Positions 38,492 to 46,114 of a stretch of 64,000 nt of DNA are shown piece by piece. Each line of letters starts with the position of its first letter. Position 1 is the first letter of the stretch. The position numbers and the translations under genes were made by a program. The notes beneath the pieces were generated by a model that searched no databases, was not told the DNA's origin, and was given only the letters and a program-made list of their open reading frames with translations. The DNA comes from Indioceanicola profundi (GTDB lineage Bacteria; Pseudomonadota; Alphaproteobacteria; Azospirillales; Azospirillaceae): NCBI RefSeq assembly GCF_003568845.1, contig NZ_CP030126.1, positions 2,011,001 through 2,075,000 of the forward strand, in the 5' to 3' direction.

Positions 38492-38526
38492 GGGAAAAAG
38501 GTGAACCACCACCCGCAGGAATGCCC

Positions 38527-39033
38527 ATGACCACCCTCACCGTCCTGCAAGGCGACATCACCACCCTGGACGTGGACGCCATCGTGAACGCCGCGAATGC
38601 CCAGTTGGCGGGCGGCGGCGGGGTGGATGGGGCGATCCACCGGGCGGCGGGCCATGCGCAGCTCCAGGCGGCGCTGCGCCCCTTCGGCGGCTGCCGCACC
38701 GGCGACGCCGTGATCACGCCGGGCTTCAATCTCAAGGCCCGCCACATCATCCATACCGTCGGCCCGGTCTGGCAAGGCGGCGCGCGGGGGGAGCCGGAGC
38801 TTCTGGCCTCCTGCTACCGCCGCAGCCTGGAACTGGCGCTGGAGCATGCTCTCACCACCGTGGCCTTCCCCGCCATCTCCACCGGCATCTATGGCTACCC
38901 GCCGGAACGGGCCGCCCCGCTGGCGGTCGCCACGGTACGTGATTTCACCACCGCCAATCCCGGCCTCCGCGAAGTGATCTTCTGCTGCTTCAGCGCCGAA
39001 AGCGCCGAGCTGCACCGCAAGGCCCTGACGTAG
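38527..39033 (+). CDS. Macrodomain protein (ADP-ribose deacetylase-like)
   Basis: The 168-residue protein is a single macrodomain with the catalytic/substrate residues of YmdB-type enzymes: N21 and N24 in [10 protein letters not shown]34 in [14 protein letters not shown], and the phosphate loop ISTGIYGYP. Members hydrolyse O-acetyl-ADP-ribose or remove ADP-ribose from proteins. The ATG at 38527 has AGGA 6 bases upstream; an ATG at 38521 lies too close to that site. A paralog follows after 129 bases. Confidence 0.92.
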
Positions 39034-39162: not shown

Positions 39163-39693
39163 ATGAGGCAGACCTTGACCCGTACCACGCTGACCGTCCT
39201 GCAAGGCGACATCACGACCCTGTCGGTGGACGCCATCGTGAATGCGGCAGCGCCCGGCCTGGGCGGCGGCACCGGCGTGTCCCGCGCCATCCATGACGCG
39301 GCCGGCCCGGACCTGTTCGAGGCCGCCACCAAGCTGGACCCGGTCGGCCGCGGCGATGCTGCGGCCACGCCCGGCTTCGCCCTTCCGGCCCGTTGGGTGA
39401 TCCATGCCGTCGGCCCGGTTTTCGTCACCGGCGCCTTGGGGGAGGACAAGGTTCTGGGCAAGACCTACCGCCGCGCGCTTGAGGTCGCCCGCGACATCGG
39501 CGCCCGCACCGTGGCCTTCCCGGCCATCTCCACCGGCGCCTACCGCTTCCCCCGCGACCTCGCCGCCCGCATCGCCGTGGACAGCGTGCGCGCCACCCTG
39601 GAAGGTCTGCCCGACGTATTCGACGAGATCATCTTCTGCTGCCGGTCGGAGGAGAGCGCCGCCTTCCACCAGGCCGCCCTGGCAGGGGCCTGA
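39163..39693 (+). CDS. Second macrodomain protein, catalytic positions altered
   Basis: The 176-residue paralog is clearly related to the preceding protein ([33 protein letters not shown]), but the Asn following NAA is replaced by Ala (A30) and the catalytic Asp by Ser (S40, in GGTGVSRAIH). The binding loop ISTGAY is kept, so it may still bind ADP-ribose without hydrolysing it. It was probably produced by tandem duplication. Upstream context suggests joint or separate expression; no promoter was identified in the 129-base gap. Confidence 0.85.
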   Translation: MRQTLTRTTLTVLQGDITTLSVDAIVNAAAPGLGGGTGVSRAIHDAAGPDLFEAATKLDPVGRGDAAATPGFALPARWVIHAVGPVFVTGALGEDKVLGKTYRRALEVARDIGARTVAFPAISTGAYRFPRDLAARIAVDSVRATLEGLPDVFDEIIFCCRSEESAAFHQAALAGA

Positions 39694-39752
39694 ACCGGCT
39701 CACGGTCCGGCACAACGTCGGTGACATTATTCCTATTTCCATGCCATGTTAT

Positions 39753-39776
39753 CCGCCGGCCTCACCGGGCCGGCGG
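39753..39776. terminator. Hairpin between convergent macrodomain and hypothetical genes
   Basis: A perfect 9-bp stem CCGCCGGCC / GGCCGGCGG with a 6-base loop is followed by TTCTTG. It begins 60 bases after the plus-strand macrodomain gene and lies downstream of the minus-strand gene, so it can serve either transcript. Confidence 0.6.
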
Positions 39777-39884
39777 TTCTTGAACAGGATGAAATCGGGC
39801 GATCCCCGCCCTCTTGACGCAACACCTTGCGATCTGTGGTGCCTTTGGTGCGTTAAGCGTGCGGCTGCGACGGCCGCCCCACTC

Positions 39885-40256
39885 TTACTCCACCGGTGCG
39901 ATGCTCACGATCTTGAAGGGGCGCTGCACGCCGTCATGCTCGGTGACGGACATGTATTCGCCCTCGATGAAGGTATGGCCTTCGAAGCGGAAGATCGGCT
40001 CATCCTCGCCGGCCTCCAGCCCGTCATAGTGGAAGTACCATTTGCCGCCCTGGTTGATCAGGCGGCCATGCTCCTCGGGCTCCGCCGCCCAGAAGCGCCG
40101 CACGGTGCAGCGGTCCTTGCCACTGTTCCAGCCCTCCTGGTCCAGGTGCCCGTCATCGGTCAGCGGGGCCACGAACTCATAGCCCCGGTCATTGGCGCCC
40201 TGGGGAAACTCCTCCTCCGTGCGGGCCAGTTCCAGGCGGATCATCTTCAACGGCAT
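39885..40256 (-). CDS. Conserved hypothetical protein
   Basis: The 123-residue acidic protein starts MPLKMIRLELART, with AAGGGAAGA before the ATG. It has RRFWAAEPEEHG, a WYFHYDG segment, and HTFIEGEYMSVTEHDG near the C-terminus. Proteins of this pattern occur widely in alphaproteobacteria without an assigned function. It is the last gene of the minus-strand group, 69 bases downstream of the universal stress protein gene, and may be co-expressed with it. Confidence 0.75.
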   Translation of the reverse strand: MPLKMIRLELARTEEEFPQGANDRGYEFVAPLTDDGHLDQEGWNSGKDRCTVRRFWAAEPEEHGRLINQGGKWYFHYDGLEAGEDEPIFRFEGHTFIEGEYMSVTEHDGVQRPFKIVSIAPVE

Positions 40257-40325
40257 TCCATCTTCCCTTTCTTGCGGCGCCCCGCGGCCCGGCACGGGAC
40301 CGATCCGCGGGTTCCTTCGGCGGGT

Positions 40326-41192
40326 TCAATGGGCCATCAACACCGGGCAGGTGGCATTGTTCAGGACATGGCGGGTAACACCGCCCAGGATCAGCTCCCG
40401 AAGGCGGGACGTGCCGTAGCCGCCCATCACCAGCAGGTCGGCATCCACCTCCGCCGCGGCCCGCAGCAGGGCTGCCCCGACGCTTTCGCCGGAGGTCGCG
40501 ACCTCCCGCACCTTGGCCCGCACGCCGTGCCAGGCGAGATACCCGGCCAGCTCGGCGGCGGAGGCGGGGTCCGTCTTTCCCGTCGGGGCGGTCAGGATGT
40601 GAACCTCGTCGGCCCGCGTGATGACGCCCATGGAGAAGCCCACGGCCCGCGCCGCCTCGGCCCCGCCGTTCCAGGCGATGGCGATGCGCCGGCCCACGGT
40701 CGCGGGCGGCAGGTCCGGCGCGATCAGCAATGGCCGTCCACTGGTCAGGAGTGCGGCTTCCAGCATCACCACGGCATCGACGCTGGCGGATTCCGGCGTA
40801 TGCGGGAAGACGGTCAGATCGGCCAGCCGGGCGGCCCCGGCCACCATGGCTTCGCACCGGCCGGTCTTTTCCACCCAGGCGGCGGTGGGGCCTCCCGGGC
40901 CGGGCGCGGCATCGGCCAGGGTCGCGCCTGCGGCAAGGCGCTGCTCCTCGAATAACCGGCGGGCTGCGGCGGAGCGGGCATTGTTGTCCCGCTCCGCATT
41001 GTCCATGACCTCCTGTACCAGCGCGCCGGAAATCCCCTCTCCCAGCATGGGAATGGTCTCATTGGGGTCCGTGCGGACGAACAGCGCCTCCACATGCGCT
41101 TCCGCCGGCCAGGCAAGCGCGAAGGCGGTGGCGATCGCTGCCGCATCCGCCTTCCCGGTCCCCAGAACACAGACGATCTTCTTGAACGGCAT
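40326..41192 (-). CDS. Universal stress protein with two USP domains
   Basis: The 288-residue protein is a tandem USP. The second domain keeps the ATP-binding loop G-x2-G-x9-G-S/T-type as MGGYGTSRLRELILGGVT, whereas the first domain is more diverged. Tandem USPs act in hypoxia, energy stress and long-term survival in other bacteria. AAGGGGA precedes the ATG. An FNR/FixK-like palindrome lies 58 bases upstream, inside the end of the preceding gene, so it could be induced by oxygen limitation. Confidence 0.93.
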   Translation of the reverse strand: MPFKKIVCVLGTGKADAAAIATAFALAWPAEAHVEALFVRTDPNETIPMLGEGISGALVQEVMDNAERDNNARSAAARRLFEEQRLAAGATLADAAPGPGGPTAAWVEKTGRCEAMVAGAARLADLTVFPHTPESASVDAVVMLEAALLTSGRPLLIAPDLPPATVGRRIAIAWNGGAEAARAVGFSMGVITRADEVHILTAPTGKTDPASAAELAGYLAWHGVRAKVREVATSGESVGAALLRAAAEVDADLLVMGGYGTSRLRELILGGVTRHVLNNATCPVLMAH

Positions 41193-41246
41193 GGCCGGTC
41201 CCCTTCTGAATGCAGGAGGAAAACCTAGAACCGCGCCGGCGTCGGC

Positions 41247-42857
41247 TCATTGACGTGCGTCAAGCGCCGCACCTGCCCGGCCCCGCTCCTCCGGCAACAG
41301 CCGCCGGGCCGCCTCGGCCACCTCCTCCGAAGGGCCTTCTGCGGACAGGACCCGCCAATCCATCCCGCCAAGGTCGAAGCCGGCTTGAAGCCGTACAATG
41401 TCCGCCGTGGCGTCGGATGCGTCGCCGGTCCGGGCCTCGACCCGGGCAAGCTGGGTGCTCTGCTCCGCACTCAGCCACAATCCTGTGAAGGGCTGGCCGA
41501 CGGCACGGGCTACCTCCCCAATGGCGGCGCGCTGCTCCGGCCGGGCATAGACCCCGTCGCAGATCACGGCATGCCCGCTGTCCAGCACCTGTCCGGCAAG
41601 GGCCGCCATCTCCGCATAGACTCGGTCGGTCACCGCCTCGCCGTACCCTTCGGGACCCAACCGGGCCAATTCGTCCACGCCCAGCATGCGCTTGCGCAGC
41701 ACGTCGGACCGCAGCACGACTGCCCCCGGCGCCGGCCCGGTTCCGGGCGCCAGAAGGCGGGCCAGCATAGTCTTCCCTGTTCCCGACAGCCCGCCGATGG
41801 CGATGAGGCCGGCCTGGCCGGGCTCCGCCACCCGCAGGGCGAGGTCCAGGTACGACAAGGCCTCCCGGCGCAGCTCCGCCGCCTCCTCCGCCTTGCTCCT
41901 GCCGGCTGCCATGGTCGCGGTGATGTGGGCCCGAATGCCGGCGCGGATGCCGAGGAACAGCGGCAGCAATGCCAGCCCGGCCGCATCGCCGCTCCGCTCC
42001 AGATATCGGTTGAACAGCGCATTCGCCAGGGGACGGAGCCGCCGATGCTCCAGATCCATCAGCAGGAAGGCCAGATCGTACAGCACGTCGCAGATTGCAT
42101 AGGCCTCGTCGAACTCGATGCAGTCGAACGGCACCGGACGGCCGTCCTGCAGGACGATGTTCCGCAGATGCAGGTCGCCATGGCAGTGCCGCACCTGGCC
42201 GGCATCCCGCCGCCGATCCATCAGCTGGGCATGCCGATCCAGCGCCCCGGCCAGCACGGCGGACAGCCGCCGCACCTGCCGTTCCGGGAAGATGTCCGGA
42301 AAGGCCTGCAGCCGCTCGATGACCCCAACGGCGATGTTCCGCATCGCAGCCGCCCCGGCCCCGTCGGGCCGGGGTTCCGCCTCTTCGTGGAAGGCGGCGA
42401 CCGCGTCGGCCAGATCGCGCATCAGGGCCGGGGTCAGGTCCCCACGCGCCGCAATCCGGTCCAGCAGACATTCCTGGTCGAAGCGCCGCATGACCACCAA
42501 CCATTCGATGGGCCGCCCGGTTATCTCCTCTCCCGGTCCAGACAGCGTCAGCCGGCCGTCCTCATCCGCCACGACCGCGCCGAGGCCGAGATAGATGCCG
42601 GGCGCCGTCCGCCGGTTCAGCTCCACCTCCGCCACGCAGGCCCGGCGGCGGAGATCCAGGGTGGAGAAATCGAGAAAGGGGAAACGCACGGCCTTCTTGA
42701 TCTTGTAGGCCAGCCCGCCGGCGAGGAACACTGCCGCCCCGTGCGTGTCCAGCCGCATGACGTCCTGCCCGCCATGGGGCGCCGGGTTGCCGAGGAAATC
42801 GAATATCCGCTCCTGGGCTGGAATGGCCTCGGCAGGAATGGGTTGCTTGTCGGTCAT
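41247..42857 (-). CDS. Aminoglycoside-phosphotransferase-like kinase fused to a P-loop ATPase
   Basis: The 536-residue protein joins an N-terminal APH/choline-kinase-like domain (Brenner motif CHGDLHLRNIV and DCIEFDE, the metal-binding Asp) to a C-terminal AAA/P-loop domain with Walker A GGLSGTGKT (about residues 355-363, Lys362). This arrangement matches proteins like mycobacterial Rv2004c. Despite the name it is unlikely to confer drug resistance. The adjacent USP gene repeats the Rv2004c-Rv2005c neighbourhood. Role and substrate are unknown. Confidence 0.9.
   Translation of the reverse strand: MTDKQPIPAEAIPAQERIFDFLGNPAPHGGQDVMRLDTHGAAVFLAGGLAYKIKKAVRFPFLDFSTLDLRRRACVAEVELNRRTAPGIYLGLGAVVADEDGRLTLSGPGEEITGRPIEWLVVMRRFDQECLLDRIAARGDLTPALMRDLADAVAAFHEEAEPRPDGAGAAAMRNIAVGVIERLQAFPDIFPERQVRRLSAVLAGALDRHAQLMDRRRDAGQVRHCHGDLHLRNIVLQDGRPVPFDCIEFDEAYAICDVLYDLAFLLMDLEHRRLRPLANALFNRYLERSGDAAGLALLPLFLGIRAGIRAHITATMAAGRSKAEEAAELRREALSYLDLALRVAEPGQAGLIAIGGLSGTGKTMLARLLAPGTGPAPGAVVLRSDVLRKRMLGVDELARLGPEGYGEAVTDRVYAEMAALAGQVLDSGHAVICDGVYARPEQRAAIGEVARAVGQPFTGLWLSAEQSTQLARVEARTGDASDATADIVRLQAGFDLGGMDWRVLSAEGPSEEVAEAARRLLPEERGRAGAALDARQ
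41250..41263 (-). promoter_or_regulatory. Candidate FNR/FixK-type box upstream of the USP gene
   Basis: TTGACGTGCGTCAA fits the TTG-N8-CAA core of alphaproteobacterial FNR/FixK/NnrR regulators and is a nearly perfect palindrome. It lies 58 bases before the USP start and overlaps the last codons of the upstream kinase gene. Confidence 0.5.
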
Positions 42858-43009
42858 GGTTCGGCTCTGTCCGCAATGGCTTCCCCTTGGGATGAGGTGG
42901 TGTCAGCCCTGCCATTCGCAATGCGGGAACGGAAGCGCGGGCCATGGGCGTTGACAGGAGCGCCACCGCACCGCACGCTTTCGTTTCGCAGCGCAGCAGG
43001 AAAAGCCCG

Positions 43010-46000
43010 ATGCCCAAGAAGGCCCGCATGGAGCTGGAGAATTCCCCCCCGCCCCAGGACACCGCCGTCGCCACGGCGACCCGGAATGGGACCGGACCTG
43101 TTCCGGCTCCGGCGGAAGCCGGGGATGAGCGGAAAATCCTGTCTGCGGCCGCCACCGTCTCCCCCCTTCTGGCCCGCCCTGCGGCCCGTTTCGCACTTCC
43201 ATCCAAATCCCAGGCGCCTGCCCTCGCGGCCGAGCTGGCAGAGGCGCTGGAGATGTACGGGCGGCAGACGGAGACCGATCCCTTCGCAAACCCGGTGCTT
43301 CTGCTGGGCCTGGACGTCTCGCGCCGGCTGCGTGCCGGGACCCTGGCCTTGGGCGATGTGGAGCAGCTCATCCAGTACCTTTCGGCGGAAGGCTTCCTGG
43401 CCCGCGCCAAGCGGCTCGGCTCCTATCTGGGGGAGGCCGATCCGGAGGCCAACACCAGCCGGCTGGAGGAGCTGATCGAGGCCCTCGCCTCGGCCAGCGG
43501 CGATTTCAGCCGCTTCGCCGCGACGGTGGAGCGGGAGTCCTTCGGCATCGTCATCACCGCCCACCCCACTTTCAGCCTGTCGGGCGAGCTGATGGAGATC
43601 CTGGCCTGCCTCGCCACCGGCCGGGATGCGGAGGGCGCGGCGCTCACGCCGAAGAAGCGGGAGGCGCTGGTCCGCCGCATGGCGTCGCTGGAGCACGCGC
43701 CGGAGGAGATGACCCTGGCGCGGGAGCATGCGCTCTCCCTCACCGCCATCGCCAACATCCAGTCCGCCCTGCGCACCCTCTATGCCGTGGTGCTGCGCGT
43801 CGCCCGCCGGCACTGGCCCGACCGCTGGATGGAGTTGACGCCCCGCATGATCACGGTGGCGAGCTGGGTCGGCTACGACCTGGACGGCCGCTCCGACATC
43901 CGCTGGTCGGACACGCTGCACAAGCGGCTGATCGTGCAGAAATGCCAGCTCCGCCACTATCTGGCGGAACTGCGGGAGATCGCGGGCGCCATGCCCCGGC
44001 AGGAGGACCTCCGCCACACGCTGGAGCTGATCGAAAGCCGGCTGGCCCTGGCGCTGAACCAGGTGACGGATGAGATCGCCGCCTTTGGCGGGCACGATGC
44101 GGCCACCGACGTCGCCCATATCCAGCGCATCGCCCGCCGGATGCATGAGGGGCTGCCGCTGCGGCTGGTCGAGGCCGGGCACGCGATCGAGCTGATCGAC
44201 CGGGCCATCCGCCTGACCGGGGAGGCCGCGCAGGACGCGGCCGCCGCCGACACCGTCGAGCGGTTGGCCGTGCTGCGGGCGGAGCTGGCAAATTACGGGC
44301 TGGGCATGGCGCATACCCATGTCCGCATCAACTCCACCCAGCTCCACAACGCCATCCGCAAGACCGTGGGCATGGAGACGGAGCCGGACGATCCCCGCTA
44401 CCGCCAGTCCTTCCTGACCAAGGTCACGGAGCTGCTGGACGGGGTTCGGCCGGCGAAGATCAATTTCGGCAGCATCATCGCCGAACGCACCAGCGCCAAG
44501 CGCCTGTTCATGGTGGTGGCGCAGATGCTGAAATATTCCGACGCCACCACCCCGGTGCGCTTCCTGGTGGCGGAGAGCGAATCGGCCTTCACCGTTCTGA
44601 CCGCCCTCTACTATGCCCGCCTGTTCGGGGTGGACGACCGGGTGGACATCAGCCCGCTGTTCGAGACGGAGAAGGCGCTGGAGGTCGGCAGCCGGGTGAT
44701 CGAGCAGTTGCTGGACAACCCGCACTACCGCGACTATGTGCGCCGCCGCGGCCGGCTTTGCATCCAGACCGGTTATTCGGACGCCGGCCGCTATCTGGGC
44801 CAGATCCCCGCCGGGGCCAGCATCGAACGGCTGCGGCTGCGCATCCTGCGCCTGTTCGCCCAGCGGGAGATGACCGATGTGCAGCTCGTCATCTTCGACA
44901 CCCATGGCGAAAGCATCGGCCGCGGCGGGCATCCCGGCGGCTTCCGCGACCGGCTGGCCTATGTCAGCCCGCCGGCCACGCTGAACTTCGCCGCCAGCAA
45001 CGGCGTCGCCCTGAAGCAGGAGGTCAGCTTCCAGGGCGGCGACGGCTATCTGTACTTCGTGACCCCGGCCGGCGCGCTCGCCGCCGTTACCCGCATCGCG
45101 GAATATCTCTGGGGGACGGAGAAGCCGGCGCTGGAGGACGACCCGTTCTACGCCGACGCCGACTACATCCGGGAGGTGTTCACCACCATCAAGACCTTCC
45201 AGGTCGGGCTGGTGGAGGACCCCAATTACGGGGCCCTGCTGGCCGCCTTCGGCACCAACCTGCTCTACCCCTCCGGCAGCCGCGCCATCAAGCGGCAGGT
45301 CGAATCGGCGGAGGACGGGCCGGAGGAGGTCATGGCCTCCCGCTTCCGCGCCATCCCGCACAACGCCATCCTGCTGCAGATGGGGATCGCGGCCAACGTC
45401 CTGTCCGGCGCCGGTGAGGCCATCGACCGCGACCCGGACCATTTCCGCAGCCTCTACGAGGCGTCGCCCCGCTTCCGCCAGCTCATCGGCCTGCTCCAGT
45501 ACGGGGTGGCGGTGGCGAGCCCGGATGCCCTGCGCGCCTATATCGACAGCCTGGACCCGGCCCTGTGGCTGACCCTGGCCGCCCGTGCCAAGGACCCGGC
45601 GGATGCGGAGGAGCTGCGCCGCGTGGCCGGCTATCTGGAGGAATCGCCGACCCACGCCCGCCTCATCAAGGTGTTCCGCCGCCTCTACCGCGACTTCGCC
45701 CTGCTGAGCACGAACCTGGAGCGGGCCGGCGCCCTGCCCCCGCAGGACGGGGAGGCCCGCACCGCCCTGGCCCTGCTGCACGCGCTGCGGCTGGCCCTGC
45801 TGCACGAGGTGTTCCGGCTGGCCACCCATGTGCCCCAGTTCTCCAGCCAGCACGCCGTCAGCCACCGCCGGCTGGTCGGTCGGCTGCTGCATCTGGACGT
45901 GCCCTGGGCGATGGAGCTGCTGTCCCAGATCTTCCCCGCCACCACCGACACCGCGCTTGGCGGCGATTTCGGGGAGCCGGCGACCTATGTCAGCGATGAG

Positions 46001-46114
46001 AGCCAGGACTACAGCCAGGAGAATGAGCGCATCTTCCGCCCGATCTCCAACATCTACGAGCTGATCCGCCGCACCGGCAACGCGGTGAGCCAGCGGATCG
46101 GCTTCTTCGGCTAG
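43010..46114 (+). CDS. Phosphoenolpyruvate-carboxylase-family protein, divergent
   Basis: The 1034-residue protein, longer than typical bacterial PEPC (about 880-930), shows recognisable PEPC blocks: VITAHPTFS with the catalytic-type His (about H185), WVGYDLDGRSD, QTGYSDAGRYLG, and ESIGRGGHPGG (about R638). It diverges from the canonical signature at TAHPTE (Glu to Phe) and at GYSDSGKDAG, where Lys and Asp are changed, and it lacks the terminal QNTG. So bicarbonate carboxylation of PEP is plausible but not assured. I start at ATG 43010 with GCAGGA 8-10 bases upstream; an ATG at 42944 would extend it by 22 residues. Confidence 0.75.
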   Translation: MPKKARMELENSPPPQDTAVATATRNGTGPVPAPAEAGDERKILSAAATVSPLLARPAARFALPSKSQAPALAAELAEALEMYGRQTETDPFANPVLLLGLDVSRRLRAGTLALGDVEQLIQYLSAEGFLARAKRLGSYLGEADPEANTSRLEELIEALASASGDFSRFAATVERESFGIVITAHPTFSLSGELMEILACLATGRDAEGAALTPKKREALVRRMASLEHAPEEMTLAREHALSLTAIANIQSALRTLYAVVLRVARRHWPDRWMELTPRMITVASWVGYDLDGRSDIRWSDTLHKRLIVQKCQLRHYLAELREIAGAMPRQEDLRHTLELIESRLALALNQVTDEIAAFGGHDAATDVAHIQRIARRMHEGLPLRLVEAGHAIELIDRAIRLTGEAAQDAAAADTVERLAVLRAELANYGLGMAHTHVRINSTQLHNAIRKTVGMETEPDDPRYRQSFLTKVTELLDGVRPAKINFGSIIAERTSAKRLFMVVAQMLKYSDATTPVRFLVAESESAFTVLTALYYARLFGVDDRVDISPLFETEKALEVGSRVIEQLLDNPHYRDYVRRRGRLCIQTGYSDAGRYLGQIPAGASIERLRLRILRLFAQREMTDVQLVIFDTHGESIGRGGHPGGFRDRLAYVSPPATLNFAASNGVALKQEVSFQGGDGYLYFVTPAGALAAVTRIAEYLWGTEKPALEDDPFYADADYIREVFTTIKTFQVGLVEDPNYGALLAAFGTNLLYPSGSRAIKRQVESAEDGPEEVMASRFRAIPHNAILLQMGIAANVLSGAGEAIDRDPDHFRSLYEASPRFRQLIGLLQYGVAVASPDALRAYIDSLDPALWLTLAARAKDPADAEELRRVAGYLEESPTHARLIKVFRRLYRDFALLSTNLERAGALPPQDGEARTALALLHALRLALLHEVFRLATHVPQFSSQHAVSHRRLVGRLLHLDVPWAMELLSQIFPATTDTALGGDFGEPATYVSDESQDYSQENERIFRPISNIYELIRRTGNAVSQRIGFFG

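Follow-up and report, generated by a model that had tools for sequence, protein, structure and literature searches.

We analysed a window of 64,000 nucleotides from the Indioceanicola profundi genome (contig C1, positions 2011001-2075000; the genome comprises 5.37 Mb in four contigs). Three neighbouring genes on the minus strand encode a kinase-ATPase fusion protein, a tandem universal stress protein (USP), and a small conserved protein. An earlier note, made from the sequence alone, had proposed this layout, and it is borne out by the open reading frames, by Pfam, and by a profile comparison with the solved USP 3s3t.

The kinase-ATPase gene (41247..42857) encodes 536 amino acids, with an APH-like kinase domain containing HGDLHxxN followed by a P-loop kinase domain containing GLSGTGKT. 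Three Pfam families scored over their cut-offs: AAA_33 (67.3 bits) and Zeta_toxin (36.8 bits), both in the same P-loop region, and APH (34.7 bits). Its matches in NCBIfam, APH-like and ModC-like, were weak and far below cut-off. A profile of the kinase found four matches among PDB sequences, three to CysN/CysC and one to a cytidylate kinase, all with the P-loop half. The structural model is confident overall (mean pLDDT 89.4); the exceptions are residues 1-3 and 525-536, with pLDDT below 50. In Foldseek the model matched choline-kinase/APH folds as well as small P-loop kinases; as modelled, the fold is that of a small-molecule kinase of the APH/choline-kinase type joined to a small P-loop kinase. 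A PEP carboxylase gene (43010-46114, plus strand) is divergent from the kinase gene, and the same neighbour is found in the loci of two genera designated g11 and g13 and in one further locus (L071).

The USP gene (40326..41192) encodes 288 amino acids and was assigned by Pfam Usp, an alignment of 12 sequences, and profile matches to the PDB. The Pfam Usp match covers only residues 225-287 (55.3 bits), at the C-terminus, and a profile of 12 USP relatives aligns N-terminal positions 3-58 with 3s3t, so the label "tandem" is a fair one. The last domain contains GGYGTSRLRELILGGVT and has the pattern G2xG9xGG (GGYGTSRLRELILGG), with GG in all 12 aligned sequences; the full ATP motif G2xG9xG(S/T) was found in none of these. 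Because GG replaces the G(S/T) of the ATP-binding class, ATP binding by this USP should not be assumed. Judged from its family, the protein may aid survival under energy stress.

The gene for the small protein (39885..40256, counted from the ATG) lies about 70 nt after the USP gene and encodes 123 amino acids; the protein was scanned as 39888-40259, one codon longer. It had no Pfam match at E ≤ 0.001, and a laxer scan returned only CDC48_2 at 13.6 bits, under the cut-off. Neither this protein nor the USP had an NCBIfam match at E ≤ 0.01, and Foldseek found no solved fold for the small protein at E ≤ 0.001 (best E 0.089). The model is nevertheless confident (pLDDT 89.3) and mostly beta, and the family has 26 invariant columns across 12 sequences. 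The gene is near the kinase gene on the same strand in eight further loci (L035, L037, L065, L066, L069, L071, L075, and L078), a count made where most family loci are too short to reveal it. Convergent with the small gene are two tandem macro-domain proteins on the plus strand (38521-39033 and 39163-39693; Pfam Macro, 151 and 107.8 bits).

An FNR/FixK-type box, TTGACGCACGTCAA, is located on the minus strand at 41263-41250, inside the end of the kinase open reading frame. It matches the FNR/FixK consensus exactly and fits the TTGAY-N4-RTCAA palindrome exactly. Its letters are also the final kinase codons, CTT GAC GCA CGT CAA TGA, and the TGA stop touches the box. The earlier note had reported such a box 58 bases before the USP start; the box is there, and the figure differs only in how coordinates were counted, with 57 bases between the box and the ATG at 41192. 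The gap between the kinase stop and usp is 54 nt.

In class II FNR-dependent promoters the site is centred near -41.5, the -10 element lies 22 nt downstream, and a -35 element is not required. A -10-like hexamer, TAGGTT (41222..41227, minus strand), follows the box after exactly 22 nt, which is the class II spacing. Judged from the hexamer, transcription would start at 41215 on the minus strand, 23 nt before the USP ATG, and a Shine-Dalgarno-like AAGGGG can be read at 41200..41205 on the same strand. A sigma-70 scan of 39600-43050, which demands a -35, found no promoter there. A generic scan found one terminator-like site, on the opposite strand, a count below the shuffle mean of 1.4.

No other exact TTGAC-N4-GTCAA occurs in the window. 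With up to two mismatches allowed, the window gave 12 matches against 9.5 expected, which is chance level, and this relaxed count was set aside. A genome-wide scan for the motif combined with a search for regulators, which the earlier note had suggested, found 15 matches to TTGAY-N4-RTCAA, compared with 5 to the reversed pattern, together with one close FnrL (described below). About 5 of the 15 boxes are thus expected by the reversed control, and some of the 15 are inside unrelated open reading frames. Given these counts, the bare box is a moderate signal only; it is conservation and promoter geometry that make the case strong. The exact composite pattern box-N22-TANNNT occurs at three places in the genome, the usp site among them, and within one mismatch at 12 places against 1 in the reversed control. 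In all 12 the box is exact and any mismatch is confined to the hexamer; one of the 12 sits inside a folA-like open reading frame and is probably a chance match. Across 82 genomes of the family, the exact composite pattern was matched 261 times, with 72 genomes contributing, and its reversed control 5 times; the 22-nt spacing is therefore a family-wide promoter feature.

The identical 14-mer lies ahead of the USP gene, at -61 to -67, in three relatives (L035, L036, and L037) whose kinases are 59-62% identical to the one described here and whose USPs are 53-55% identical. In these relatives the 14-mer is intergenic, whereas in this genome it is coding. Kinase matches were found in 73 of the 82 family genomes. 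The best kinase region was used for 69 of the 73, with G020, G043, G053, and G054 omitted for their fragmentary matches and second kinase copies left out except in G060. A USP gene follows the kinase gene on the same strand in 63 of these 69 genomes, and 21 of the 63 have a box with at most one mismatch within 100 nt of the USP start, four of them exact. Upstream regions shuffled with preservation of base composition only gave a mean of 0.14 such boxes and a maximum of 2 in 200 rounds. By genus, the box is present in g1 (1/1), g12 (1/1), g11 (10/10), g13 (5/5), and g10 (4/5), and it was found within 100 nt in none of the 41 genomes of g3 (a genus of the same family, taken to be Azospirillum) that have the pair. 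One Azospirillum (G024, loci L071 and L170) does carry an exact box, at -168 and so beyond the 100-nt range. Among 30 named records with the pair, at least five of which are Azospirillum records already within the g3 count, five have the box (L065, L066, L075, L078, and L093), and that of L066, an Inquilinus MAG, is exact. Of all 150 loci examined, 93 have a USP gene after the kinase gene and on its strand; some organisms are counted twice, L100 and L103 were filtered out despite having a USP, and several of the remaining loci end too early.

The spacing was also compared among relatives. Of 24 distinct tails, 9 (g1, g12, two g11, four g13, and L065) have TANNNT at a distance of exactly 22 nt downstream of the box, against a shuffle mean of 0.21 and a maximum of 3 in 5000 rounds. 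Other offsets within 0-44 nt were 16 (two tails), 17 (one), 21 (two), 23 (one), and 39 (one). The hexamer pattern was absent at 22 nt from the four g10 boxes and from eight one-mismatch g11 boxes, one of which has it at 21 nt. Because the tails and the genomes share ancestry, the shuffle figures exaggerate how independent the cases are; the 22-nt tail statistics are to be taken as support and not as a probability.

The placement of the site in the end of the kinase gene is unusual, although FNR control of a USP gene is ordinary in kind. The kinases of the 11 aligned relatives (in an alignment of 12) end about 15 residues earlier, and residues 525-536 are among those of low pLDDT. The likeliest reading is that the kinase tail was once intergenic and has been drawn into the reading frame. 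The site doubles as kinase codons because the frame here runs through what is the relatives' intergenic spacer until it reaches the TGA.

A candidate regulator is encoded at C1:2856135 (L001). This FnrL-like protein has C-x2-C-x7-C near its N-terminus and a fourth cysteine, and contains cNMP-binding and Crp helix-turn-helix domains. Its recognition helix contains ETVSR, which we take as pointing to FNR. With the cluster cysteines in place, L001 is predicted to be an oxygen-sensing FNR. An FnrL match at E ≤ 1e-40 was found in 76 of the 82 family genomes. All 45 g3 genomes are among them, so Azospirillum has lost the site, or never had it, while keeping the regulator. In six g3 loci of 30 loci (L052, L053, L058, L059, L062, and L063), a one-mismatch FNR-type box occurs more than 1 kb before the kinase gene.

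The box could also be used by another member of the CRP/FNR family, of the FixK, DNR, or NNR type, in which case the signal would be nitric oxide or a FixLJ cascade and oxygen would not be sensed directly. Binding sites for FNR, FixK, and DNR are alike, indeed nearly identical, according to the available part of one study (PMC2908626), and this genome has 13 HTH_Crp_2 matches over the cut-off. When these 13 proteins were compared by eye, however, L001 was the only one with both the cysteine cluster and ETVSR, and it is also the sole FnrL match in this genome at E ≤ 1e-40. We regard use of the box by another family member as unlikely.

The box, its spacing, its conservation, and the regulator gene are all observed here. 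Our interpretation is that the box serves a class II FNR-dependent promoter as its activator site, from which FnrL would drive transcription of usp when oxygen is low, and probably of the small gene as well; we put the probability of this reading at about 0.84. The FNR-type promoter before usp is judged real and probably functional. The mechanism would be the general one for FNR proteins. As oxygen falls, the FnrL-type protein would keep its cluster and dimerise, and the dimer would bind TTGAC-N4-GTCAA, centred at about -41.5, and bring RNA polymerase to TAGGTT. The induced transcript, starting about 23 nt before the USP gene, would span usp and probably the small gene, and the kinase would be transcribed from a different promoter.

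The earlier note had proposed low-oxygen control for the module. That proposal is well supported for the USP, by the conserved box, the class II spacing, FnrL, and the boxes ahead of ccoN-like and hemA-like genes (below). The small gene is included by its position only, and for the kinase the proposal is not supported, the box being downstream of the kinase start. The kinase gene lies upstream of the promoter, which does not explain kinase expression. It could be argued that the kinase gene, usp, and the small gene form a single operon induced at low oxygen and that the kinase is FNR-controlled too, which would be compatible with a second start before usp. The frequency of the same-strand pair (93 of 150 loci) would fit such an operon, as would the 4 of the 93 loci (L037, L065, L078, and L093) in which the 300 nt ahead of the kinase gene include a box with one mismatch. 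The kinase start, however, precedes the conserved box, and in this genome no box with up to one mismatch was found over the 1500 nt leading up to the kinase gene; a single FNR-controlled operon appears unlikely. A box driving the kinase was considered as a candidate and dropped, since this genome is not among the four loci. That the box is a chance match in coding sequence, with usp read through from a kinase promoter, is very improbable: its position inside the kinase open reading frame, the roughly 5 of 15 genome boxes expected by the reversed control, and a gap of just 54 nt would allow it, but the same 14-mer recurs in relatives where it is intergenic, and the spacing and conservation statistics speak against it.

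The FnrL-dependent promoter that we favour for usp has close counterparts elsewhere in the genome. An exact composite promoter precedes a lactate/malate dehydrogenase gene (L024, C1:1736037-1736050), the hexamer likewise being TAGGTT, and another precedes a gene for a 61-aa RMF-like protein (L030, G000:C2:748316-748329), whose PF04957 score of 22.0 bits is under the cut-off of 27.9. The distance from box to start codon is 57 nt for usp, 57 nt for the dehydrogenase gene, and 56 nt for the RMF-like gene. The last of these suggests possible ribosome hibernation at low oxygen. Boxes are also found ahead of a COX1-family (ccoN-like) gene and a hemA-like gene, named by eye and from Pfam. The ccoN-like site has no near-match hexamer at 22 nt and is outside the 12 composite places. 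Both ccoN and hemA are described as FnrL targets in Rhodobacter in the available part of PMC2908626. A PAS-GGDEF-EAL gene on the minus strand (L029) also has an FNR-type box, about 90 nt upstream of it.

What began as a guess at a low-oxygen box is now a defined promoter prediction that can be tested, complete with an expected transcript start, and control is indicated for the stress protein rather than for the kinase. The genera compared also share the genes and the regulator yet differ in the promoter, a clean case of its gain or loss. A broader and tentative idea, which we think doubtful as a whole, is that the kinase-ATPase/USP/small cluster is an ancient module for quiescence at low oxygen in the Rhodospirillales, run by FnrL here and by the unrelated DosR in mycobacteria. 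It would belong to a small dormancy regulon with the lactate/malate dehydrogenase and RMF-like genes, on nearly superimposable promoters; Azospirillum would have been rewired off FnrL with genes and regulator kept, and in this genome the site would have been absorbed into the kinase frame. If usp, the dehydrogenase gene, and the RMF-like gene do share this promoter, that would point to a compact regulon for survival of oxygen limitation outside the mycobacteria.

FNR control of USPs is already established in the alphaproteobacteria. In Rhodobacter sphaeroides, the USP gene uspA (RSP_0697) is bound and activated by FnrL at TTGACatggATCAA, and uspA is a predicted core member of the alphaproteobacterial FNR regulon, as far as the accessible portions of two papers go (PMC2908626, PMC4263372). 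Both organisms thus have a USP gene with an FNR-type site, which is FnrL-bound in R. sphaeroides and predicted here. The surroundings differ, in that the RSP_0697 region, as described in those portions, includes ccoN and fnrL, whereas the USP gene here follows a kinase-ATPase gene and the site is in the kinase end. Three USP genes of Dinoroseobacter shibae are activated by direct FnrL action according to the part of PMC5398030 available, a likeness to the control that we predict from sequence. The word "phosphotransferase" is absent from the main text of PMC5398030, and the accessible part of PMC2908626 names a "putative kinase RSP0470", apparently as a FixK entry, in the stretch that separates the DNR and FNR headings. 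A title-level literature search found no paper title on a kinase-USP pair under FNR. In the literature searched, as far as its available text extends, we found no description of a site within the kinase gene, of the kinase-USP pair with the site in several genera, or of the absence from Azospirillum.

The other system for comparison is the Rv2004c/Rv2005c pair of Mycobacterium tuberculosis, in which the kinase-ATPase and tandem USP families are adjacent in the DosR regulon. From the locus numbering, the mycobacterial gene order appears to be reversed relative to that described here. The two pairs differ in regulator, a two-component DosR system in Mycobacterium and an FNR-type protein here. 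A USP profile matched the Mycobacterium USP structures 2jax and 3cis weakly, with E about 0.005. Rv2005c has a full G2xG9xGS motif in the available part of PMC2914252, where this USP and its 11 aligned relatives have G2xG9xGG. In both systems a tandem USP gene has a kinase-like gene as its neighbour, and expression at low oxygen, which the accessible text of PMC2914252 and PMC5483032 describes for Mycobacterium, is predicted here. The parallel drawn in the earlier note consequently holds for gene content, an APH-like and P-loop kinase fusion beside a tandem USP, and fails for the USP motif, with GG in place of GS; we regard it as a resemblance in gene content.
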